The position numbers were made by a program, and so were the translations under genes. Below are positions 666 to 26,825 of a DNA stretch of 30,462 nucleotides, one piece after another; the first letter of the stretch is position 1; the number at the start of each line of letters is the position of its first letter. Origin of the DNA: a virus; the IMG/VR virus record IMGVR_UViG_3300032267_001036, positions 1 through 30,462 of that record. One strand, written 5' to 3'. Below the pieces are notes generated by a model that had not been told where the DNA came from, did not search any database, and worked only from the letters and a program-made list of their open reading frames with translations.

Positions 666-696
666 TACTAATGCAAACTTTTGAAAAAATCCGCCC
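666..696 (-). promoter_or_regulatory. Phage promoter-like motif, copy 1
   Basis: On the minus strand GGGCG (692-696) is followed after exactly 14 bases by TTTGCATTAGTA (666-677), then GTTATAGG. It faces the gene at 138-569 and sits just beyond the terminator of the capsid gene. It belongs to a seven-member family in this window. Promoter function is inferred from conservation, orientation and position. Confidence 0.65.
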
Positions 697-3956: not shown

Positions 3957-4400
3957 TTAATCTACAAAGGCCTTCATTTTCTGCGCATACTCAAATGACT
4001 TAATGCGAGAAATGATTTCACGGGCTTGTAATGTAATAAACACTACCGGACCGCCGTCATCAGCTGGATCTACAACAAAACGATCGCCACCGTATTTAAT
4101 CGTCCTTACCAAATCACCAACTTTGCACCAATTACCTTCAATCCAAGGTTCTAGTGTATCTGGTGACTTGTATGCTAAAGGACCTACTTGTACGACTTTA
4201 GCTACTGTCTCGTTGAACTTCAATGTTTGTTGAGTTTCGTCAACAAAAATGATGCCGCCTTTACTTTTTACTTTTTGCCGACGCAGCTGGACTAAAACTC
4301 GGTCTCCAACTACTTCAACACCCGGATCTACATCAGGAAAACATTCTAATTCTGATCTTGTATCCGGCTCTTCTTTGTTACTTAAATCAAATGCTGCCAT
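3957..4400 (-). CDS. groES: Phage GroES-like co-chaperonin
   Basis: 147 residues with a GroES core: VVGDRVLVQLRRQKVKSKGG (about 29-48) matches the first strand and the beginning of the mobile loop, GGIIFVDETQQT is the loop that contacts GroEL, and VGDLVRTIKYGG with a terminal VVFITLQAREIISRI completes the barrel. It is longer than the roughly 97-residue bacterial protein, with an N-terminal extension and a longer C-terminal part. AAGGAG precedes the ATG. Phage co-chaperonins such as T4 gp31 redirect host GroEL to fold capsid protein; the location between portal and scaffold fits that role. No phage GroEL is in the window, so host GroEL would be the partner. Confidence 0.85.
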   Translation of the reverse strand: MAAFDLSNKEEPDTRSELECFPDVDPGVEVVGDRVLVQLRRQKVKSKGGIIFVDETQQTLKFNETVAKVVQVGPLAYKSPDTLEPWIEGNWCKVGDLVRTIKYGGDRFVVDPADDGGPVVFITLQAREIISRIKSFEYAQKMKAFVD

Positions 4401-4420
4401 ACGGCTGCGCTCCTTGACCT

Positions 4421-4615
4421 TTACAGGTCTTCTTCTTCATCCTCCGTCAAAATTTCGTTGACAATGTCCAAGGTTGTTTCCAAGCCTTCTATTTTGCCGA
4501 TTAAATATTTATAATCTTCAAATGTGTGGACATTTGTCCCAGCGGTGACGGCTTCCGCTAGTTTTGCTTTTTCTTCTCTCGTGCGAGAGATAATTTCTGA
4601 AATAAAGTCCTTCAT
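4421..4615 (-). CDS. Small acidic helical protein, possibly leaderless
   Basis: 64 residues (MKDFISEIISRTREEKAKL at the start; acidic tail TEDEEEDL), probably two helices. Unrecognised. Its ATG lies only five bases after the promoter-like TTTGCATTAGTA motif (AGTTT then ATG) and no Shine-Dalgarno sequence fits between them, so a leaderless or nearly leaderless mRNA is implied if that motif is the -10 region. It is the first gene of the GroES-scaffold-capsid unit, with 20 bases to GroES. Small virion-morphogenesis or regulatory protein; function unknown. Confidence 0.65.
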   Translation of the reverse strand: MKDFISEIISRTREEKAKLAEAVTAGTNVHTFEDYKYLIGKIEGLETTLDIVNEILTEDEEEDL

Positions 4616-4620
4616 AAACT

Positions 4621-4651
4621 TACTAATGCAAACTTACGAAGAAATCCGCCC
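4621..4651 (-). promoter_or_regulatory. Phage promoter-like motif, copy 2
   Basis: On the minus strand GGGCG (4647-4651), 14 bases, then TTTGCATTAGTA (4621-4632). It lies five bases in front of the ATG at 4615 and faces the GroES-scaffold-capsid genes. The 14-base spacer starts GATTT, as in copies 1 and 5. Confidence 0.7.
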
Positions 4652-4654
4652 CAA

Positions 4655-4888
4655 TTAATAAAAATTTCCGCTTTTAATGTCTTTGAGGTTCTTATCTGGA
4701 CCGATTTTGTCAGAATTTGCCATTTTGGCTTGCGCTGCACCAATTTTCCAATTGTTGTTACGTGCTGAGCCTGATGGTCCTTTGTCTAGTGTGGTTTCGC
4801 CAGGGCCGCCAGCGTAACCAGGGGTGCCTGTCATTTTATAGGCTTTTTTGTAGCCTACTTCGCCGCCGGGTTGTTTTGTGTTTGCCAT
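4655..4888 (-). CDS. Small Gly/Lys-rich protein following portal
   Basis: 77 residues, rich in Gly, Lys, Asn and Thr, with low hydrophobicity and probably disordered (for example MTGTPGYAGGPGETTLDKGP). Its ATG overlaps the portal stop by one base (TAATG), with AAGGA upstream, so translation is coupled to portal. Not recognised. The tight pairing with portal suggests a small structural or portal-associated protein. Just downstream, the next gene has its own promoter-like motif, so this is the last gene of the portal unit. Confidence 0.55.
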   Translation of the reverse strand: MANTKQPGGEVGYKKAYKMTGTPGYAGGPGETTLDKGPSGSARNNNWKIGAAQAKMANSDKIGPDKNLKDIKSGNFY

Positions 4889-7707
4889 TATTGTCCTTGA
4901 ATTGGAGGTGTTGGGGGTTGTAATTGTGCTTGTTGCTGCTGCAGTGCTGCGTCTAATCCAGCTTGGTGCTGTGCTTGTTCTTGCGCGTGGGCTGCTTGTT
5001 GGGCTTGTTGTGCCATTTGTGTCATATGGTCAACTTGCTGTTGCTGGATTTCTATGCCGTGATTCTGAATGCTTTGTTGGGCTTCAATCGTTGCTTGACG
5101 CGCCAACATATCCTGTTCATGCTGTACGCTTAACTGGTCAGAAGTTAATTGTGCATTGGCAGCAATTTCGGCAATACGTTCTTTTGATGAATTGTTGATG
5201 TCAGCAAGGGCAATTTGGGTTGCGTTCTTCTGATTGTCAATTGTGGTCTGGGTTTCGTATCTGCCTTGTAACTCAAGTACCTGGCGTTGCAGTTCAGCAA
5301 TTTTAAGATCGTAATTTTGCTTATCACGCGCAACTTCAATCTGCATACGTGCTTCAGATTCTTTTTGTTTGCGCTCAGTTTCTGCCATTTGAGTTTTAAG
5401 AATAACCTGAGCAGTAGGATCTTGAGACGCAATGTTTTGTTGCTGAGCTTGTTGAGCTTGTTGTACTTTTTGCGCTAATTGTTGAATTTGCTGTACATAC
5501 GGCGCCATGGTTTGTTGTGAATCCAAGGCTACCATGTGTGAAGCCAATGCTAAAGCTTGCTGTGAATCTGTGTCTAGTGGTTTTTCTTGATGCAGTTCAA
5601 GCGTATCTTGTCCGCCAGCGGCTTGTGCCACATATTGGCGCATAGACTGCAGATAGTGTAACGTTAAGTGTTGCTTGATATGTTCTAATGCATGGGGTGA
5701 AAATGATGGTCCAATAACTGGGTTGCCACCATACGCTGGGTTTTGGGCATACTCCAAGTGAATTTTAATATGTGCCAGATGATCTTGATCGGGGTAAGCC
5801 GCAGCAGGACGACCCATAGTCATGGATACGTTTTCAAGCGCTGGGTTAGATTCTTTTGCACCCATCGGGTTAGGCAAAATTTCTTCTAAGTTAGGAACCT
5901 TAAGCTGCGTCAAAATGCGGCGGTACATGCTGCGAATGTCAAACATTCCCGGAGGCGCTGTCTTTGCCAATTCCAAAATAGCTTGGTTTTGGGCAAGACG
6001 TTGGGTCTCGGAGAAAATGTTAGGATCAGATACTGGGCGTACGTCGCTGTTTTGTGCAAAGTCGCGTACTTCAATTTCTGAACCAGATTGGTTGTCCATT
6101 TCTGGCAAGAACCAATGATTGATACGGGCAATGATTGCAAGCGACTTAGCTTGGCTACGATGCAAACGAGCGTGGATGCTGGAGAATACTTTAGCACCCT
6201 GTTCAATCAACGCCTGGGCTGTGCCCACAGGCATGTTGTTGTTTGCTTCGCCAATCTTTTCTTCGGATGTGGTAACAACACCTTTAGCAGCGGTTGTTAG
6301 CCAACCCATCAACTCCAATAGCACGGATGATGGTGGGTTAAACGGCATTGGCATGGCGATCTTACGCACATCGTCAACCCCGGGTGATCCCTCAATCTCA
6401 ATTACCTGTGTTGGTTCAATTCGATCAGACTGTCCGCCAATGCGTCCACCTTTGAGTTTAAGCATTGTCTGGCTGTTGTTGATATGAGCAGCGTCAAGCA
6501 AAGCACGAAGAGAACCGGTGAGAGCAGCACTAAGACCACCAATAAGCTGAGGTAGTCCAATAGCGTAAGCTCCACGCCAGGGGATGAATTTAAATTCAAC
6601 ATACCAGTCGAGTTTTTCAAGTTTTTCATCGCCAGATTCCCAGTTGCGGTAAAGTGCTAATACTTCGCTCGTTGTTTCATCAATAGTCATGATGTAAGGA
6701 GCGCGCCTACCCTCTGTCAGTGGGTCTTCTTCCAAACGCATGAAACAAGTTATCTCATACACACGACGCAGGCCGTCGATGTTTTTAGAAGGCTCTTGTT
6801 TGCCTTCAATTTTGTTGTTTGCTTTTTCAGACTGGGTCTGGTCTGTTAACGGTGCGTCGGATGAATAGTTAGCATCAATGTCACGGTAGATCCCAGCTTC
6901 AACACGTTGTAAGAACGTGTCTTCTGTAATGTCTTGAACTTCAGTTACACGCGGGGAGGTGTAGAAGTTAGTTGTGGAGTAAGGCAGAATGATGTTGTCA
7001 ATTGCAACCCATTCGCAAGTTGGTCGTTTTTGTTCTGTGTCAAAACGCCATTTAAGAAACTGTGAACCACCGAGCGGTAACTGGGTTAGCAGCTGCTCCA
7101 TCTCATCGCGGTATTCAGGAATCTGCTCAGTCAACTGCCAATTCATAAATGTTACTTTACGATCTGCAGTTTCTTCTTTTACACGATCAGCTTCACCTTT
7201 GATGTTGGACTTAACCAAACCATCGGGAGGTAATAATTCTTTTGCAGCAGATGCAGCAAAGTCAACACAGGCTTCTGCCATGACAGGATGCACCACTTTG
7301 GATGCGCCATCAAATGTTGCACCGCCAGGTGCGTCTTTGCCTAAGCCAGTACGCTTTAATCCTTCTTCGTACTGTTTGTCACGTTGCTTACGAGCCTCTT
7401 TGTCAACGTCAATGAAGTCTAAATATTCAACCGCCAGTTTTTGTAAAAGGTCTTCATCAAATTCTTCGGCTAAGTTAGCATAAAACTCAGGATCTTTGAT
7501 GGGGCCTTGTTTAGGCTGGAAGTTGACAACTATGGAACCGTCATCTAACTCAATGACTTCCTGTTCTACCTCAGCAGGATCTAGCCCGAGTGCTTCCTCG
7601 TAGAGATCCATTTCTGCGTCTTGTTGCTGAGCTTCTGCTAAATTGTCTTCAGTGTCGAGCCCGGGCAAGTTTTGACCCATTTGCATCGGTATTTGTGGAT
7701 TTGCCAT
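4888..7707 (-). CDS. Portal protein
   Basis: 939 residues, expected to form the dodecameric ring through which DNA enters and leaves the head. The N-terminus is acidic and Gln-rich. The central body carries motifs such as LLTQLPLGGSQFLKWRF, EWVAIDNIILPYSTTNFY and PFNPPSSVLLELMGWL, as in large podovirus-type portals. The C-terminal third is a very Gln/Ala-rich coiled coil (about residues 690-939) that may form an extended barrel. It follows TerL, the usual order. The ribosome site is weak (AAAG before TCTATGG). A tiny reading frame, MIQQILK, lies in the leader directly upstream. Confidence 0.88.
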   Translation of the reverse strand: MANPQIPMQMGQNLPGLDTEDNLAEAQQQDAEMDLYEEALGLDPAEVEQEVIELDDGSIVVNFQPKQGPIKDPEFYANLAEEFDEDLLQKLAVEYLDFIDVDKEARKQRDKQYEEGLKRTGLGKDAPGGATFDGASKVVHPVMAEACVDFAASAAKELLPPDGLVKSNIKGEADRVKEETADRKVTFMNWQLTEQIPEYRDEMEQLLTQLPLGGSQFLKWRFDTEQKRPTCEWVAIDNIILPYSTTNFYTSPRVTEVQDITEDTFLQRVEAGIYRDIDANYSSDAPLTDQTQSEKANNKIEGKQEPSKNIDGLRRVYEITCFMRLEEDPLTEGRRAPYIMTIDETTSEVLALYRNWESGDEKLEKLDWYVEFKFIPWRGAYAIGLPQLIGGLSAALTGSLRALLDAAHINNSQTMLKLKGGRIGGQSDRIEPTQVIEIEGSPGVDDVRKIAMPMPFNPPSSVLLELMGWLTTAAKGVVTTSEEKIGEANNNMPVGTAQALIEQGAKVFSSIHARLHRSQAKSLAIIARINHWFLPEMDNQSGSEIEVRDFAQNSDVRPVSDPNIFSETQRLAQNQAILELAKTAPPGMFDIRSMYRRILTQLKVPNLEEILPNPMGAKESNPALENVSMTMGRPAAAYPDQDHLAHIKIHLEYAQNPAYGGNPVIGPSFSPHALEHIKQHLTLHYLQSMRQYVAQAAGGQDTLELHQEKPLDTDSQQALALASHMVALDSQQTMAPYVQQIQQLAQKVQQAQQAQQQNIASQDPTAQVILKTQMAETERKQKESEARMQIEVARDKQNYDLKIAELQRQVLELQGRYETQTTIDNQKNATQIALADINNSSKERIAEIAANAQLTSDQLSVQHEQDMLARQATIEAQQSIQNHGIEIQQQQVDHMTQMAQQAQQAAHAQEQAQHQAGLDAALQQQQAQLQPPTPPIQGQ

Positions 7708-7748: not shown

Positions 7749-7779
7749 TACTAATGCAAAGAAAAGGACATTTTCGCCC
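7749..7779 (-). promoter_or_regulatory. Phage promoter-like motif, copy 3
   Basis: On the minus strand GGGCG (7775-7779) overlaps the TerL stop codon and is followed after 14 bases by TTTGCATTAGTA (7749-7760) and GTATTAGGACAAACATG. It faces the portal gene. The roughly 40-base leader contains the mini reading frame MIQQILK before the portal ATG at 7707. Confidence 0.65.
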
Positions 7780-9224
7780 TATTGTGCGTATGGGTTGGTA
7801 AATCGTTTGCCATAATCATCGTCAGCGTAGCTATAATCGCGCGGTGGCAGGTAGTCTAGTTGGATCCAGCCAGAATCACGCAAAACACGCAGCGCTTGTG
7901 ATAGGGAGTCTACATAGTCATCATGACCGCCTGCTTCTGGAAACGAACAAACCTGACGTAAGAACCGTTTAGCCCAGTCAGCGTAGTCGCCTTTTTGTTT
8001 GGTATCCTCGGGTATGAATACTTTTCCCTTAGCAACAAGGGGCGCAACGATGTTTAAGCGCTGCACCTTGTCAGCGCGTCCAGGATTGTAGCCCCGCACT
8101 GGAACCATGGCGCCTTGAAGCTCTTGAATCAGCGAAATACCCGCCGATTTGTCTTCCATCAGAATCAAGTCCGCTTTTCTGCCCTTAGCAAAGTCATTAT
8201 CAGCACCATAAACCACTTCTTTGTAGTCATCAATCACTTTTCGGCGCAATTCCGGATAGGCAAGGTGCGCATCCCACGCATCTAACAGGATAATCGCTGT
8301 GCCAGCGTCTAATTGTTCAAAAACTCCCCAGATTGTGCAAGCCGTGGGGTCGTTCATAGTTTTTTCGCTGGTAGCTGGGTCGTAGCTGGCGATGACGTAC
8401 TCCAGGGTAGGAGTTGGTTTGTCAGCGGGCCAAAGTTTGAACTGTTTACGTTTGATAATACCAGCGGACTCAGGGTCTAAAATCTCACCGTAAATCTCTT
8501 GACGACCAATGTCGGTGCCATCATACGTCTCTAGCTGTTTAAAAAACGTTTCGGATAGGTTTGCGCGGTTATCGTACGAGGAAGCGTTAGCAACATACAC
8601 GTCACCACCGATTTTTCCTTCATTAATATCAACAATTAACTCCTTTGGTTTAGGAGTTGTGGTAATTATTTGCTGAACTCGCGGTATTCTGGGATCTTTA
8701 AGACGTAGTGTGAATTGCACTCCATCGTAGGCTTCGTCAAGGTAATCGAAGGCGCAGAGTTCGTCAAACCAAGCTCCGTGATATTGCTTACCACGATAGC
8801 GTTCTGGTTCCGAACCAGGAATACCCTGAATAATTGATCCGTTAGTAAGGGTGATTTCAAATAATGATTTGTTGTAGTCTCGGATAAGGGAATGTGGAAT
8901 AATGTTGAGTAGTCCGCTGTCACCTTCAAAGCAAGTGGCTCGAATGTCATTACTGGTCGGAGCAGTAACAAGCCAACGAGTATTGTCGTATGTCCAAGCA
9001 CGAATCCCAATCCAATGCGACGCAGTGTGGGTTTTGCCGGATCCGCGCCCAGCGAGCATAAGAAACGTATCATATTCACCATCGTCCGGTTCCCTCTGGT
9101 GGGGAAGCGCTTGTAGGTGCCATTTGACTTTCCAAAGGACAGCATCAAGCTGTTGTTTAGGCCAGTGTGGTCTTGCTTGGGCGAACTTCTTTAACTCAAG
9201 TTCTTGTTTAGGGGTTAGTGGCAT
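7779..9224 (-). CDS. terL: Terminase large subunit (packaging ATPase and nuclease)
   Basis: 481 residues from ATG 9224. It pumps DNA into the prohead and cuts the concatemer. Walker A is GRGSGKT (59-65); Walker B is the WFDEL segment (152-156); a coupling-like ITTTPKP follows. The RNase-H-like nuclease shows SYDPATSEK (Asp282), ILMEDKSAG (Glu357/Asp358) and GGHDDYVDS (Asp435/Asp436). I preferred ATG 9224 over the earlier ATG 9287 because AAGGA sits eight bases upstream and the first 21 codons of the longer form are an Arg-rich out-of-frame reading of the intein-like gene. It overlaps that gene by 10 bases in the -1 frame. Confidence 0.93.
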   Translation of the reverse strand: MPLTPKQELELKKFAQARPHWPKQQLDAVLWKVKWHLQALPHQREPDDGEYDTFLMLAGRGSGKTHTASHWIGIRAWTYDNTRWLVTAPTSNDIRATCFEGDSGLLNIIPHSLIRDYNKSLFEITLTNGSIIQGIPGSEPERYRGKQYHGAWFDELCAFDYLDEAYDGVQFTLRLKDPRIPRVQQIITTTPKPKELIVDINEGKIGGDVYVANASSYDNRANLSETFFKQLETYDGTDIGRQEIYGEILDPESAGIIKRKQFKLWPADKPTPTLEYVIASYDPATSEKTMNDPTACTIWGVFEQLDAGTAIILLDAWDAHLAYPELRRKVIDDYKEVVYGADNDFAKGRKADLILMEDKSAGISLIQELQGAMVPVRGYNPGRADKVQRLNIVAPLVAKGKVFIPEDTKQKGDYADWAKRFLRQVCSFPEAGGHDDYVDSLSQALRVLRDSGWIQLDYLPPRDYSYADDDYGKRFTNPYAQ

Positions 9225-10180
9225 GGGATAAATCCTTCTCCTACGAGAATGGTGTTGTTTTGCCCGTCGGTTTCTACATGGACGCACATTTGATCTGATA
9301 TTGAATCAATTGAGCGGATGTATCTGCGGTCAACATGAACGCGCATCTTTGGCGAGCGCTGGTTTTCCACCAAAGTATGACGGGATTTAAAAGAAATAGT
9401 ATACGCTTTTATTTGGGAAAGCGTGGTCTTCATCCCCAAAGACTCTACAAGTGCTTGAATTTGGCTGATAAATGGAAAACTAATCGACGTTATCCTAAAC
9501 CGATCGTCTTTTACCGAATACTGGCGGGGTTTGCCATGAATAAACCCCCGCAATAACTCCATACGCTGCTCAGGAGAACCCATCAGGTAGTTAGTAGGTA
9601 TCTGCCGAGGTAGGTTGGGTATGAGTTGTGACTCAATGGACGGGGTGACTGAAAAGTAATACCAGCCCTTAGTAACTTTGTAGCCAGCATCCTGAAATTT
9701 TTGGGTGACATAATCCTCGTTTTGGCCAAGAAACGTCATTTGGTTGTGTTTTTTGCGGTTGACAAACCAATAAGCAAACACAAACGGCGGTATGGACAAC
9801 GGCTGGGTTGGCAGTACAATAGGCTGTGTGGTTGGTACTGAGATAGCCCAACGATTGGTTTTGGTTTTAAGGGGAGTTGTCAGTAAGTCCTGGATGGGTA
9901 AGAACTTAAGTGGGCGGCGAAATTTAAATCGGCCCTTGTATTCCGCTAAACGTTTGCGGTATTTTGGGGTTTCTACTAGGAAACCAAGTTTATCGTCCCC
10001 AGCTGCCGTAAGATGGTCATCAAAATTAATGCGATAGCAGTTGTTTGCCCTGTATTCTTGGACTAAAGTGACTTTGCGGGGAAAGCCATCTTTGTCAAAC
10101 ACATAGTCGCCTACCTGCAGTTTGTGCGCAGGTTTCCAATAATCAAGGGTTAGTACCTTCTCTGTTGCTAGTATAGCCAT
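9215..10180 (-). CDS. Orphan intein-like (Hint) protein with decayed endonuclease domain
   Basis: 321 residues laid out like an intein without exteins. The N-terminal Hint block is EKVLTLDYWKPAHKLQVGDY with VFDKDG next (7-32). The block B region (LTAAGDDKLGF, about 57-67) lacks the usual TxxH histidine. A central part (about 130-265; FVFAYWFV, GSPEQRMELLRGFIHGK, IQALVESLG) resembles a degenerate LAGLIDADG homing endonuclease. The C-terminus CVHVETDG...TILVGEGFIPCH looks like intein blocks F and G but stops at His without the terminal Asn. It overlaps terL by 10 bases and the preceding gene by 38. Self-splicing is unlikely; a role in terL expression or a relic are the options. Confidence 0.7.
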   Translation of the reverse strand: MAILATEKVLTLDYWKPAHKLQVGDYVFDKDGFPRKVTLVQEYRANNCYRINFDDHLTAAGDDKLGFLVETPKYRKRLAEYKGRFKFRRPLKFLPIQDLLTTPLKTKTNRWAISVPTTQPIVLPTQPLSIPPFVFAYWFVNRKKHNQMTFLGQNEDYVTQKFQDAGYKVTKGWYYFSVTPSIESQLIPNLPRQIPTNYLMGSPEQRMELLRGFIHGKPRQYSVKDDRFRITSISFPFISQIQALVESLGMKTTLSQIKAYTISFKSRHTLVENQRSPKMRVHVDRRYIRSIDSISDQMCVHVETDGQNNTILVGEGFIPCH

Positions 10181-10448
10181 AAAAATTATCTAGAACCCAG
10201 CGGTCCAGCCATCTCCCTAACGGAGCGCGTATTTTGTTTTGAATGCCATAGGGTAAGCGCCGTACATCCATGACATCAGTAACTTTGAGGCGAAATTCCA
10301 AGTATCTGGCTGTCTCGGCGTCAATGACTTCCACCGGTACGTCCACAATCTCAAAGTTATTCTTATCACACACCAAGACTCGCAGGCCGAGGAAATGGCC
10401 CTGAGCATCTTCCAATGCTCCTTTGATCTGATATGCATAATCATTCAT
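10143..10448 (-). CDS. Small protein at head of packaging operon, unknown
   Basis: 101 residues from ATG 10448 (MNDYAYQIKGALEDAQ at the start). A mixed alpha/beta composition with a basic C-terminal half (RRLPYGIQNKIRAPLGRWLD). I rejected the longer reading from 10667, which runs through the promoter and iteron region. The ATG sits five bases after a promoter-like TTTGCATTAGTA motif with no room for a Shine-Dalgarno site, as in the gene at 4615. Its 3' end overlaps the intein-like gene by 38 bases. Function unknown; the position beside terL is where some phages carry terS, but no HTH is apparent here and a better TerS candidate is at 25890. Confidence 0.65.
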   Translation of the reverse strand: MNDYAYQIKGALEDAQGHFLGLRVLVCDKNNFEIVDVPVEVIDAETARYLEFRLKVTDVMDVRRLPYGIQNKIRAPLGRWLDRWVLDNFYGYTSNREGTNP

Positions 10449-10453
10449 AAACC

Positions 10454-10484
10454 TACTAATGCAAACAATTGCCGTTTTGCGCCC
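10454..10484 (-). promoter_or_regulatory. Phage promoter-like motif, copy 4
   Basis: On the minus strand GGGCG (10480-10484), 14 bases, then TTTGCATTAGTA (10454-10465) and GGTTT before the ATG at 10448. It is the probable start of the leftward packaging transcript. The arrangement after the motif matches copy 2 almost exactly (GGTTTATG versus AGTTTATG). Confidence 0.7.
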
Positions 10485-14651: not shown

Positions 14652-14819
14652 ATGCTTTCGTTTTTAGGTGGTATACTGGTGCTATTGTCGGCTTTTAGTT
14701 TGAGCTATGGATTTACAATGGAGAATTTTGCATGGTTAATTTTAGGTATCTTCTTATGTATACCCAACCTGATTCATTTAGTGGTGGTGGATCGGTTCAA
14801 TGGTAACAAAAGAAAATGA
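14652..14819 (+). CDS. Small two-helix membrane protein (55 aa)
   Basis: Starts MLSFLGGILVLLSAFSLSYG. Two hydrophobic helices (about 3-21 and 28-46) with a basic cytoplasmic tail (DRFNGNKRK). AGGAG (in the end of the previous gene) lies seven bases upstream. It overlaps the sigma-factor start by 20 bases. Could be a superinfection or host-membrane protein; function unknown. Confidence 0.6.
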   Translation: MLSFLGGILVLLSAFSLSYGFTMENFAWLILGIFLCIPNLIHLVVVDRFNGNKRK

Positions 14820-15378
14820 CCTACTAAGCGACTATCTACAATCCCTTTATGGGATTGAGCCACTACCCACAGAAGAAGAACACAGATTAGCGCAGTTAAT
14901 TGCTCAAGGGGATGACGATGCACTAGAAAAGCTCGTCACCCACAATCTGCGCTTTGTTGTCTATATTGTCAGGCAGATGACCGCTTGGCAGTATGGCAAA
15001 GTGCCAGTAGAAGATATGATTGCTATGGGTAATGAATCCTTATTCAAAGCTGCAAGGCAGTGGAAACCAACCAACAATGCCAAGTTTGCCACCTACGCCA
15101 AATCATTCATCTTCAAAGATGTGCGTAGAGCCTTGGACAATACAGCTAACCTCATCCGGCTACCAATTAATATCATGGAGCAAATCAAGCGACTTAACTA
15201 CAACGCTAGGACATTGACCCAAATGCTAGGTCGGCCGCCCACTGTGACCGAACTGGCTAAGATTATGAAGGTCAAAGAGTCTAAAATCTACCAGCTTCAG
15301 AATCATCTTAGCAGAGAACCCATATCAATCAACAACTTAAAACAAGAAAACCACATCGAGGAGAGCAGTGATGATTAG
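14800..15378 (+). CDS. Phage sigma factor, region 2-3 only
   Basis: 192 residues. Region 1.2/2.1 is recognisable (about 10-60), region 2.2-2.4 spans about 65-122 (VPVEDMIAMGNESLF, KFATYAKSFIFKDVRRALDN, IRLP), and a region-3-like HTH (LGRPPTVTELAKIMKVKES, about 143-161) follows. Region 4 is absent: the protein ends DD at 192. In the usual KFSTYATWWIRQAI segment the Trp pair is replaced by KSF/IF and the -10-reading Gln/Thr positions are altered, so promoter choice should differ from host sigma70. It should bind host core polymerase and direct phage transcription; the TTTGCATTAGTA sites are candidate targets. Confidence 0.82.
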   Translation: MVTKENDLLSDYLQSLYGIEPLPTEEEHRLAQLIAQGDDDALEKLVTHNLRFVVYIVRQMTAWQYGKVPVEDMIAMGNESLFKAARQWKPTNNAKFATYAKSFIFKDVRRALDNTANLIRLPINIMEQIKRLNYNARTLTQMLGRPPTVTELAKIMKVKESKIYQLQNHLSREPISINNLKQENHIEESSDD

Positions 15379-15688
15379 CCTTACCTTTGAGCAACAAAAA
15401 GCCTATGACCGCTTTATCAGGGCACGAAATAAGGTGGGCATCGTCAAACGAACGGGTAAGTGGATAAGACTAGCTGATGTCCAGTCTACTGTTGATCTAA
15501 TGGGTTTTAACCACCCCTTTTATGAGGACAACCCTGACTATCGGGAGTATAAGGAAGCTTTCTTGGCTTGGTTGGCAGTCGAGCCTCGTTTTCGCCATGA
15601 ACAGCGCATGAGAATGACAAGGGGTGACTATGGCGCAGAGGATTCTTGGGAAGAGAAGGATAAAGGCAAGAAGGCAATGAAACCATGA
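15371..15688 (+). CDS. Early protein, unknown (105 aa)
   Basis: Starts MISLTFEQQKAYDRFIRARN. Contains aromatic-rich motifs (FNHPFYEDNPDYREYKEAFL, WLAVEPRFR) and an acidic C-terminus. GAGGAG precedes ATG 15371, which overlaps the sigma-factor stop by eight bases. It overlaps the next gene by four. No family recognised; position next to the sigma factor could mean a regulator partner. Confidence 0.6.
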   Translation: MISLTFEQQKAYDRFIRARNKVGIVKRTGKWIRLADVQSTVDLMGFNHPFYEDNPDYREYKEAFLAWLAVEPRFRHEQRMRMTRGDYGAEDSWEEKDKGKKAMKP

Positions 15689-15882
15689 AAAAAGCGATAC
15701 CGACAGAAATGTATGACACAAATGGCAACTTGCAGATGATCCAATACCATGATGAGGAGGGTAAATTCATCATTCAAGCTGTTTGGGATGAAAATGACGA
15801 GCAAACAGCCGAAAACCGAGCAGAGTTTCGTAAATGGGCTGGCAGATGGCTAAAACAGAACGGATGGGGGGTTACCACTTAA
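15685..15882 (+). CDS. Small acidic protein, unknown (65 aa)
   Basis: Starts MKKAIPTEMYDTNGNLQMIQ. Likely a small beta/alpha domain. Its ATG overlaps the preceding stop (ATGA). Its last codons (GWGVTT) lie in GGGGGGTTACCACTTAA, a sequence repeated at 13376-13392, so the gene's 3' end is shared with a repeat unit. Last gene before the iteron region. Function unknown. Confidence 0.55.
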   Translation: MKKAIPTEMYDTNGNLQMIQYHDEEGKFIIQAVWDENDEQTAENRAEFRKWAGRWLKQNGWGVTT

Positions 15883-16168: not shown

Positions 16169-16180
16169 TTTGCATTAGTA
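16169..16180 (+). promoter_or_regulatory. Phage promoter-like motif, copy 6 (no GGGCG)
   Basis: TTTGCATTAGTA followed by TAGAGAAACTATG; the ATG (16191) of the primase-helicase begins ten bases later. The GGGCG element found 14 bases upstream in five other copies is missing (ATTTA instead). Possibly a variant with a stronger TAGTATA core. Confidence 0.6.
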
Positions 16181-21596: not shown

Positions 21597-21892
21597 ACGA
21601 ACAAGAATTATTAGATTTAATGAACAACATTATCAAAGCGGCAAAACCAATGGATAGTGAAGAAATTGTTCTGACGTCTTTAGACATTCCAATCAAAGAT
21701 ACCGGGCTAGATAGTTTAGATTGCATTATGATTAACATTTTTCTAGGTGAAATGTTCGGTGTTTCTTCAGAAACTATTGGCGAAATGCAGCTTGGTCCAG
21801 AAAGCAAAATGAGTGACATGATTAATTTTATGCTTGAACATAAAACAAAACAGCCAGCAACTTTAGTTGAGGCTTTGGAAAATATTAAATGA
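21593..21892 (+). CDS. Acyl carrier protein-like (phosphopantetheine carrier)
   Basis: 99 residues. The motif DTGLDSLDCIMINIFLGEMF gives the GLDSLD sequence that accepts the 4'-phosphopantetheine arm, on Ser41. Acidic helices before and after it match the ACP fold (usual length 75-100). The C-terminal 20 residues extend beyond a minimal ACP. ATGA overlap with both the helicase stop and the ketosynthase start means it is part of the phage operon. A host phosphopantetheinyl transferase would be needed; none is in the window. It carries the growing acyl chain for the next two genes. Confidence 0.88.
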   Translation: MNEQELLDLMNNIIKAAKPMDSEEIVLTSLDIPIKDTGLDSLDCIMINIFLGEMFGVSSETIGEMQLGPESKMSDMINFMLEHKTKQPATLVEALENIK

Positions 21893-23016
21893 AAATTTAT
21901 TTGACCAGATACAATACACTTAGCACTACCAACACAAAAGTGTTGTCCGATTTAAAGTATCCACAAAGGGTGCATTGGATCCCTGAACTTTATTCAAGGG
22001 TTAAAACCGGATTTGCTTACGTGCCACACGAAGCGGCATACAAAATTCTCACCAAAGAACTGATTGATTACGTAAAAAATAATTCAGTAGATGGAAAAAC
22101 TGGTTTTATTCTAGCCGGAGGCTCACAAGGTTGGGCTGGTGGTAAAGCTGTTGGTGAAGATAAACCCAGTGAGCTTGACTACTCTTTTAAACTAGGCATT
22201 TTATCGGTTACAAACATTTTTGCTGGCCGAGTCGCCGCTATGTTTGAGGCCTATGATTATGTTGCCACGGATGCAAGTACTTGCGCCACTGGTATCAAGT
22301 GCATGATGGACGTACAAAACCTCATTAACAATTTGGGATTTGATCGTGTAATTATGTTGGCTCAGGAAGACCCAACATCAAAACTAACGTTAGAATTTTT
22401 TGGACAAGCAAATGCAAACATTCTTATCAAAGACGAAGAAGCTGGTGCTATACCCTCAGCTTTTGATAGTATTAATTCTGGATTTATTGTTGGTCAAGGT
22501 GCTGCTGTGGCAGTGTTTGAGTCCGAGGCTGCAGTTAACAAAAACGCGGTTACGCCAAAAGCTGAGCTTTTAAGCGCATGGGTATCTGCTGAGGAGCTTT
22601 CTAATCCAATTGGTCAGCGACCAGATGGTCAAGGCTATCAGCGTGCGATTCGTGGCGCATTAGACATGGCCAAGGTTGAGCCGTCTGATATTAAGATCGT
22701 AAAGACACACGGTACCGGCACACCCACAAATAACCAGTCAGAAAAGACAGCGCTTACTACTGTACTTGGTAATAACTTTGTGGCAACGTCATACAAGCAG
22801 CGTATTGGACATACTGTGGCAGCTAGCGGATTGCTTGAAACATGTTTGATACTAGACGATATGCAAAAGGGCATAGTGCCAGCTATTGCAAACCGCACAG
22901 AAAACGATGACTTGTTTTTATCACATGAAGTAGTTGCCCCAAATGGGTTGTTGATGAGCATGGCCGCGGGCATGGGCAACATCTATGCTGCAGCAGTAAT
23001 TAATCCAAAAGTTTAA
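21889..23016 (+). CDS. Beta-ketoacyl-ACP synthase (FabF-like condensing enzyme)
   Basis: 375 residues. The condensing-enzyme active site is intact: Cys132 in DASTCATG, His274 in KTHGTGTPT, Lys303 and His308 in YKQRIGHTVAASG. The C-to-H spacings (142 and 34) are close to those of FabF (140 and 37), and the Lys-to-His spacing of five is identical. The N-terminus is about 40 residues shorter than FabF's 413, and the bulky start MKIYLTRYNTLSTTN is atypical. It should condense malonyl-ACP with an acyl primer. Start overlaps the ACP stop by four bases. Not a chain-length-factor, since the Cys is retained. Confidence 0.88.
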   Translation: MKIYLTRYNTLSTTNTKVLSDLKYPQRVHWIPELYSRVKTGFAYVPHEAAYKILTKELIDYVKNNSVDGKTGFILAGGSQGWAGGKAVGEDKPSELDYSFKLGILSVTNIFAGRVAAMFEAYDYVATDASTCATGIKCMMDVQNLINNLGFDRVIMLAQEDPTSKLTLEFFGQANANILIKDEEAGAIPSAFDSINSGFIVGQGAAVAVFESEAAVNKNAVTPKAELLSAWVSAEELSNPIGQRPDGQGYQRAIRGALDMAKVEPSDIKIVKTHGTGTPTNNQSEKTALTTVLGNNFVATSYKQRIGHTVAASGLLETCLILDDMQKGIVPAIANRTENDDLFLSHEVVAPNGLLMSMAAGMGNIYAAAVINPKV

Positions 23017-25113: not shown

Positions 25114-25144
25114 GGGCGGATTTCCTGAAAAGTTTGCATTAGTA
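25114..25144 (+). promoter_or_regulatory. Phage promoter-like motif, copy 5
   Basis: GGGCG (25114-25118), 14 bases (GATTTCCTGAAAAG), then TTTGCATTAGTA (25133-25144) and GATATAGGGAG. It faces the gene at 25215, TerS and the following unit. The only GGGCG-type copy on the plus strand. Confidence 0.7.
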
Positions 25145-26813: not shown

Positions 26814-26825
26814 TTTGCATTAGTA
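26814..26825 (+). promoter_or_regulatory. Phage promoter-like motif, copy 7 (no GGGCG)
   Basis: TTTGCATTAGTA followed by TAAATACAGGAG, the ribosome site of the next gene. GGGCG is missing (CGTCA at the expected place). It faces the DUF2800-type gene. With copy 6 it forms a second subtype with TAGTATA after the core. Confidence 0.6.

Follow-up and report, generated by a model that had tools for sequence, protein, structure and literature searches.

A repeated promoter-like motif, leaderless-type gene starts and a phage sigma factor in a group of uncultured phages

The 64-aa gene and the motif copies in the window

The DNA of interest (hereafter, the window) is the 30,462-nucleotide stretch of IMG/VR virus record IMGVR_UViG_3300032267_001036. 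The head-gene block of the window contains a small minus-strand gene, the start codon of which is preceded by a 12-bp motif. The features of this locus are:

4421–4615 (-): 64-aa gene of the head-gene block, located between a GroES-like gene and the portal gene; start of the leaderless type
4613–4615 (-): ATG start codon; transcription is predicted to begin at A4615 or at most 5 nt before it
4621–4632 (-): promoter core TTTGCATTAGTA, at -17 to -6 counted from the A of the ATG; present as exact copies and conserved in homologs
4628–4623 (-): -10-like hexamer CATTAG, inside the promoter core of the 64-aa gene
4646–4651 (-): GGGCGG at -36 to -31, placed as a -35 element would be, with 17 bp separating it from the -10-like hexamer
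4608–4643 (-): imperfect inverted repeat across the promoter and start codon

A first-pass annotation had described a motif followed by AGTTT and ATG at this place, and had proposed that transcription begins at or next to the A of the ATG. No strand was named; the layout is indeed present, on the minus strand, where TTTGCATTAGTA (4632–4621) is followed by AGTTT (4620–4616) and then by the ATG (4615–4613) that opens an ORF of 64 codons (4421–4615). Upstream, an in-frame stop precedes the ORF, after which no start codon occurs before ATG 4615, and no Shine-Dalgarno (SD)-like tetramer lies 4–14 nt before that ATG. The 64-aa protein has no Pfam or PHROG match.

The exact 12-mer occurs seven times in the window (three plus-strand and four minus-strand copies), while the same pattern read backwards, used as a control, occurs zero times. 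All seven exact copies are aimed into downstream genes. When up to three mismatches are allowed, 56 matches are obtained against a shuffle mean of 46.8, with 9 of 100 shuffles equally high; since this count is ordinary, the signal is confined to exact and near-exact copies. A chance motif was ruled out by the exact copies together with the homologous loci described below. The remaining copies, and the gene that follows the second leaderless-type promoter, are:

666–677 (-): exact motif copy, then TTATAGG, with no ATG at +1
7749–7760 (-): exact motif copy upstream of the portal gene, then TATTAGG, with no ATG at +1
10454–10465 (-): second leaderless-type promoter, TTTGCATTAGTA followed by GGTTT and ATG (10448)
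10143–10448 (-): 101-aa gene lying upstream of the terminase gene, with a start of the leaderless type; homologs begin at the same M
16169–16180 (+): exact motif copy; the primase (PHROGs) ATG lies 10 nt past the motif, with a predicted leader of ~5 nt
25133–25144 (+): exact motif copy, leadered (GATATAGGGAG)
26814–26825 (+): exact motif copy, with a short leader containing AGGAG before the TTG start of an exonuclease gene

Between the pre-portal promoter and the portal start (7743–7690, minus strand), the window has only a 7-codon ORF; the same place in three relatives is occupied by an 81–88-aa gene with a leaderless-type start, of which the 7-codon ORF is possibly a remnant. A separate ORF at 9215–10180 (-), between the 101-aa and terminase genes, gives a weak, below-cut-off match to the Hint domain and is conserved in seven of nine related contigs searched. 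A tRNA scan found none.

Motif spacing and promoter anatomy in related contigs

A protein search yielded 180 relatives of the 64-aa protein, the best 80 of which were used, and 66 relatives of the 101-aa protein; both searches were made without use of upstream DNA. Loci L027, L117 and L131 (upstream sequence too short) and L151 (partial match) were excluded before counting. The pattern G-Y-ATTA-D-T lies at exactly -14 to -7 from the ATG in 77 of 79 loci of the 64-aa gene (from the best 80 of 180 relatives) and in 63 of 63 loci of the 101-aa gene. Counted by distinct upstream 45-mers, the motif–ATG spacing is kept in 49/51 sequences for the 64-aa gene (again from the best 80 of 180 relatives) and 44/44 for the 101-aa gene; the two exceptions, both at the 64-aa gene, have TTTGGATA(A/G)CTTA in the motif position. 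The distance between motif and ATG is fixed while the intervening bases are variable, and therefore the spacing itself is held. Conserved spacing in homologous phages was a check set by the first-pass annotation, and the leaderless proposal passes it.

Within this pattern, a YATTAK-type hexamer occupies -13 to -8, 7 bp from the ATG, in 140 of 142 loci (those of the 64-aa gene taken from the best 80 of 180 relatives). A -10-like element fixed 6–7 bp from the ATG is what marks a leaderless promoter, and here the distance is 7 bp. The -10 hexamer, earlier taken to be TTAGTA, is better drawn as YATTAK, two bases further upstream and 7 nt from the ATG.

No SD-like tetramer is found 4–14 nt upstream of the ATG in any of the 142 homologous loci of the two genes, which agrees with the original claim that an SD site is lacking. 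SD absence alone cannot single out leaderless genes, since a strict SD match is found for only 9 of the 20 genes surveyed in the window. With regard to other possible start codons, an in-frame stop comes first in 79 of 142 loci. A start farther inside the gene, named at the outset as an outcome that would count against the proposal, is not seen: the 64-aa protein is conserved from M1 in 20 of 20 aligned sequences, and an internal start codon was rejected on this ground. M1 is conserved in both proteins, so that both genes have what is expected of leaderless genes, namely a true ATG start without an SD site.

An alternative is that portal-operon read-through mRNA is the only template for translation of the 64-aa gene, and that the motif serves only downstream genes. 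The gene does sit in a long minus-strand block, but read-through would leave unexplained why 140 of 142 loci, belonging to two unrelated genes, keep the exact spacing. In addition, the inverted repeat would form a hairpin enclosing the AUG in read-through RNA of the window and some relatives. We regard read-through as the sole source of translation as very unlikely.

With respect to the repeat, a 6–8-base match between the spacer and the start region occurs in 11 of 53 distinct sequences of the 64-aa gene, versus about 1.7 expected, and in 1 of 45 sequences of the 101-aa gene, versus about 1 expected. For five chosen repeat-bearing examples, folding is more stable than in shuffles (z -2.1 to -5.6), a result that is suggestive only, because the examples were picked for the repeat and the sequences are related. 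That the repeat would hide the AUG of the 64-aa gene in read-through RNA is, similarly, a suggestive reading for the window and some relatives.

Promoter anatomy was compared across 25 whole contigs: the window and 24 of 30 longer relatives (absent: G004, G005, G008, G017, G027 and G029). With 11 motif strings, picked by eye after the alignments had been seen, and near-duplicate contigs merged by way of distinct sites, the 25 contigs contain 149 distinct motif sites, versus one occurrence of the reversed strings. An ATG lies exactly 5 nt after the motif at 36 of the 149. At the other 113 sites, the would-be position of the ATG's A is still A in 101 cases and the base just before it T in 96, with TA jointly in 89; TATAGG and TATAGA are the usual forms. 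The T-A pair persists at sites that have no ATG in that position and is therefore part of the promoter itself; most simply, the A of T(-1)A(+1) would be the transcription start. Transcripts should then begin at the ATG or within a few bases of it. The originally proposed start at or near the A of the ATG thus gains support from sites that share the promoter and have no ATG there.

It could also be argued that the same promoter initiates 1–5 nt upstream of the ATG, giving a very short leader. Transcription start sites often vary by a few bases, and 7 nt separate the -10-like element from the ATG. However, T(-1) is near-invariant (50/51 distinct upstream sequences for the 64-aa gene and 43/44 for the 101-aa gene) and the T-A pair recurs at sites without ATG, from which the main start would be expected at the A. 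A very short leader in place of none is, in our view, unlikely.

A second conserved block lies further upstream. Of the 149 sites, 86 have GGGC at exactly -36 to -33 (21 of the 36 leaderless-type sites and 65 of the 113 others), versus 10 at all other scanned offsets. The spacings are 17 bp from GGGCGG to YATTAK and 7 from YATTAK to the A, both of which are ordinary geometry for sigma-70-type promoters.

The leaderless-type layout occurs in six gene families across the 25 contigs:

101-aa gene: 21 contigs
64-aa gene: 18 contigs
81–88-aa gene: 3 contigs
acyl-carrier-like gene: 2 contigs (Pfam PP-binding, one of the two above cut-off)
104–106-aa gene: 2 contigs
HNH-like gene: 2 near-duplicate contigs (below Pfam cut-off)

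In contigs G019, G020 and G028, a gene resembling the 81–88-aa one has, by eye, a TAAATAGG start and a leader, and so leaderless and leadered forms seem to be interchangeable at one promoter.

The motif exists as subtypes (CATTAG, YATTAT, GCGTATTAG and CATTAA) that are largely uniform inside one contig. Pairs of sites from the same contig agree in subtype in 90% of cases, versus a shuffled mean of 43% and maximum of 51% (1000 shuffles; G010, G022 and G023 left out). In L015–L019, the 64-aa gene is 82–93% identical to that of the window, yet 11 of 11 sites are of the YATTAT type.

The phage sigma factor and candidate readers of the motif

Two adjoining plus-strand genes of the window bear on the question of what reads the motif:

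14800–15378 (+): phage sigma factor, 192 aa (Pfam and PHROGs)
15371–15688 (+): 105-aa orphan overlapping the sigma stop; candidate sigma partner

The sigma protein matches Pfam sigma regions 2 and 3 above their cut-offs and region 1.2 weakly, below it. A profile of 18 sigma relatives, compared with the PDB, finds solved primary sigma factors (best 6.5e-33), and a model built from 18 sequences (mean pLDDT 78.6; single-sequence model, pLDDT 49) matches sigma structures (best 8.7e-10). Of 30 contigs, 25 carry the gene; the protein ends at 187–193 aa in 21 of 21 aligned sequences. Region 3 is recognised in 19 of 20 contigs, while region 4 (PF04545) is above cut-off in 0 of 20, its weak matches falling within the sigma gene. 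A single-subunit RNA polymerase (PF00940), as would accompany T7-type promoters, is found in none of the 30 contigs (lengths up to 68 kb, possibly incomplete; T7 control positive, 1e-109). As the contigs are mostly fragments, the absence of region 4 and of the polymerase is weak evidence.

A T7-like phage polymerase as the reader of the motif would account for the TATAGG or TATAGA often seen at sites without ATG, which resembles such promoters. However, the polymerase search came back empty with its control positive, and 25 of the 30 contigs carry a sigma gene. A T7-type promoter was rejected on the polymerase result, and we consider this reading extremely unlikely.

The distribution of sites differs along the contigs. 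Across 18 contigs, the interval bounded by the 101-aa and sigma genes contains one site in 122 kb; the remainder has 115 in 523 kb, a density that predicts 27 for the interval (near-duplicate contigs were kept; G001 was skipped, its record breaking in the interval). Judged from the layout, the sigma-containing region is presumably early. If this early region lacks the motif, motif-driven genes would be post-early, and the motif-poor interval fits a programme in which early genes would be read by the host sigma factor before a switch. Together with the uniform subtype, the interval would tie the motif to a trans-acting phage factor. Two marks of a phage sigma regulon are found: a sigma-70-family gene is encoded, and the motif is repeated before post-early genes and sparse in the early region. 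We infer that the sigma factor at 14800–15378 is the probable reader of the motif.

Reading by the main sigma factor of the host was also weighed. The 17-bp GGGCGG–YATTAK spacing resembles that of sigma-70 promoters, and TATTAT, found in one subtype, differs from TATAAT by one base. Against this, host promoters are expected in the early region, which lacks the motif; the subtype shifts as a block from phage to phage; CATTAG and GGGCGG are poor sigma-70 hexamers; and a sigma-70 scan of 4300–5000 gives no promoter, which led us to reject a host sigma-70 promoter there. Host sigma as the reader is accordingly improbable.

Returning to the phage sigma factor, agreement between motif subtype and sigma sequence is no independent proof, because it follows phage phylogeny. 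In G003, which has the most diverged sigma factor (41% identity), the 64-aa gene has a diverged promoter, TTTGGATAGCTTA; co-variation cannot be claimed here, since this form occurs once only in the contig. A comparison by eye of residues in sigma regions 2.4 and 3.0 with promoter subtypes gave no clean correspondence.

The conserved GGGC at -36 is puzzling, because reading of a -35 element is not expected of a sigma factor that lacks region 4; the retention of GGGC poses a clear question as to its reader. One candidate is the 105-aa orphan. By tblastn, its gene is found in 22 of 24 other contigs, adjoining sigma each time and overlapping or abutting the sigma stop; the two contigs without it are those in which no sigma gene was found. 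Searches of the PDB and Pfam gave no match for the family, and PHROGs gave none below 0.1. A 65-aa gene follows the orphan in the window (15685–15882, plus strand).

A tentative possibility, which we think doubtful, is a split sigma factor: the 192-aa protein would read the -10-like element and the 105-aa orphan, in place of region 4, the GGGC at -36, with the start A shared with the start codon at chosen genes and an AUG-hiding repeat (CCTTCAT...ATGAAGG) in some lineages. As the start A would be shared with the start codon, only transcripts made by the phage sigma factor would begin with AUG. If true, translation of the 64-aa gene in some lineages would, through the repeat, depend strictly on the phage sigma factor.

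Proposed mechanism, known systems and distribution

We consider it probable that the motif represents promoters of the phage's own sigma factor, and that the mRNA is leaderless at some genes. The phage sigma factor would, with host RNA polymerase, read TTTGCATTAGTA-core promoters consisting of (i) the -10-like G-YATTAK-TA, (ii) GGGC at -36 to -33, and (iii) a start site of the form T(-1)A(+1). In most cases, +1 would be followed by bases such as GG or GA and then by a leader. In a subset of genes, +1 would coincide with the A of the ATG, such that the mRNA is leaderless or has a leader of at most about 5 nt; these mRNAs would be translated without an SD site. The exact transcription start and the leaderless translation are predictions from sequence. 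On the same basis, the first-pass leaderless call appears well supported and more general than was known, as part of a phage-wide promoter that would be leaderless at some genes. The uncultured phage group would thereby gain a predicted transcription programme in which the start site is readable from the promoter sequence. It would also provide a natural set in which one promoter drives leaderless and leadered genes side by side, making leaderless translation by the host directly testable.

The leaderless mRNA of lambda cI comes from a single gene and is made from a host-sigma promoter. It is a phage mRNA that begins at the AUG (PMC9031893). In our contigs, one promoter class is found at six leaderless-type gene families. 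Phage transcripts are often leaderless, according to the paper on phage AR9 (PMC5312081). In Deinococcus-Thermus, leaderless mRNA is produced from a -10 element that lies 6–7 bp ahead of the ORF, at a strict distance from the start codon (PMC12340547). The phage motif is similar in the closeness of its -10 element to the ORF and its strict distance to the start codon. It differs in its length of 12 bp, in the GGGC at -36 and in its probable reader, a phage sigma factor; the Deinococcus-Thermus element is a chromosome-wide host TANNNT.

T4 late promoters are served by gp55 with gp33 and gp45, with gp33 replacing sigma domain 4 in a split sigma factor (PMC2988020, PMC7892883). The likenesses are a diverged sigma-70-family protein, a -10-like element, the use of host polymerase and, as in gp55, the lack of region 4. 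Unlike T4 late promoters, which have no conserved -35 sequence, 86 of 149 sites here carry GGGC at -36 to -33; and unlike gp55, the sigma factor here has region 3 and matches primary sigma factors, with no sliding-clamp dependence known. Phages 7-11 and phiEco32 have a short conserved promoter motif, a few per genome, assigned to a phage sigma factor (PMC4331800). They share with our contigs the repeated short motif and the phage-encoded sigma factor; their motif has a TGATGT core, and fixed start-codon spacing is not mentioned for them in the part of the paper available. Leaderless phage genes and phage sigma regulons are thus each known, while their combination, with a fixed -36 block and no region 4, looks new from the sequences compared; leaderless starts joined with a phage sigma regulon were not found in the open-access literature, as represented by sources available in part.

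As for distribution, a related portal is found in the cultured Caulobacter phage RW and Roseobacter phage CRP-901, and the uncultured MW202545 was likewise considered. In all three, a small gene likewise separates the GroES-like and portal genes. The motif is absent at these small genes, which indicates that the arrangement belongs to a group of uncultured phages. Megablast of window bases 1–25000 against phages gave no match, as did searches of phages with the 64-aa and 101-aa proteins; a search of genome contigs with the 64-aa alignment gave no relative. L275 (4291, plus strand), a contig of a betaproteobacterial MAG, has a 58% identical sigma factor and one motif site, a weak hint of a betaproteobacterial host.

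Lastly, the window carries a phage-borne beta-ketoacyl synthase (Pfam; 21889–23016, plus strand), and relatives G007 and G022 have acyl-carrier-like genes with leaderless-type starts.
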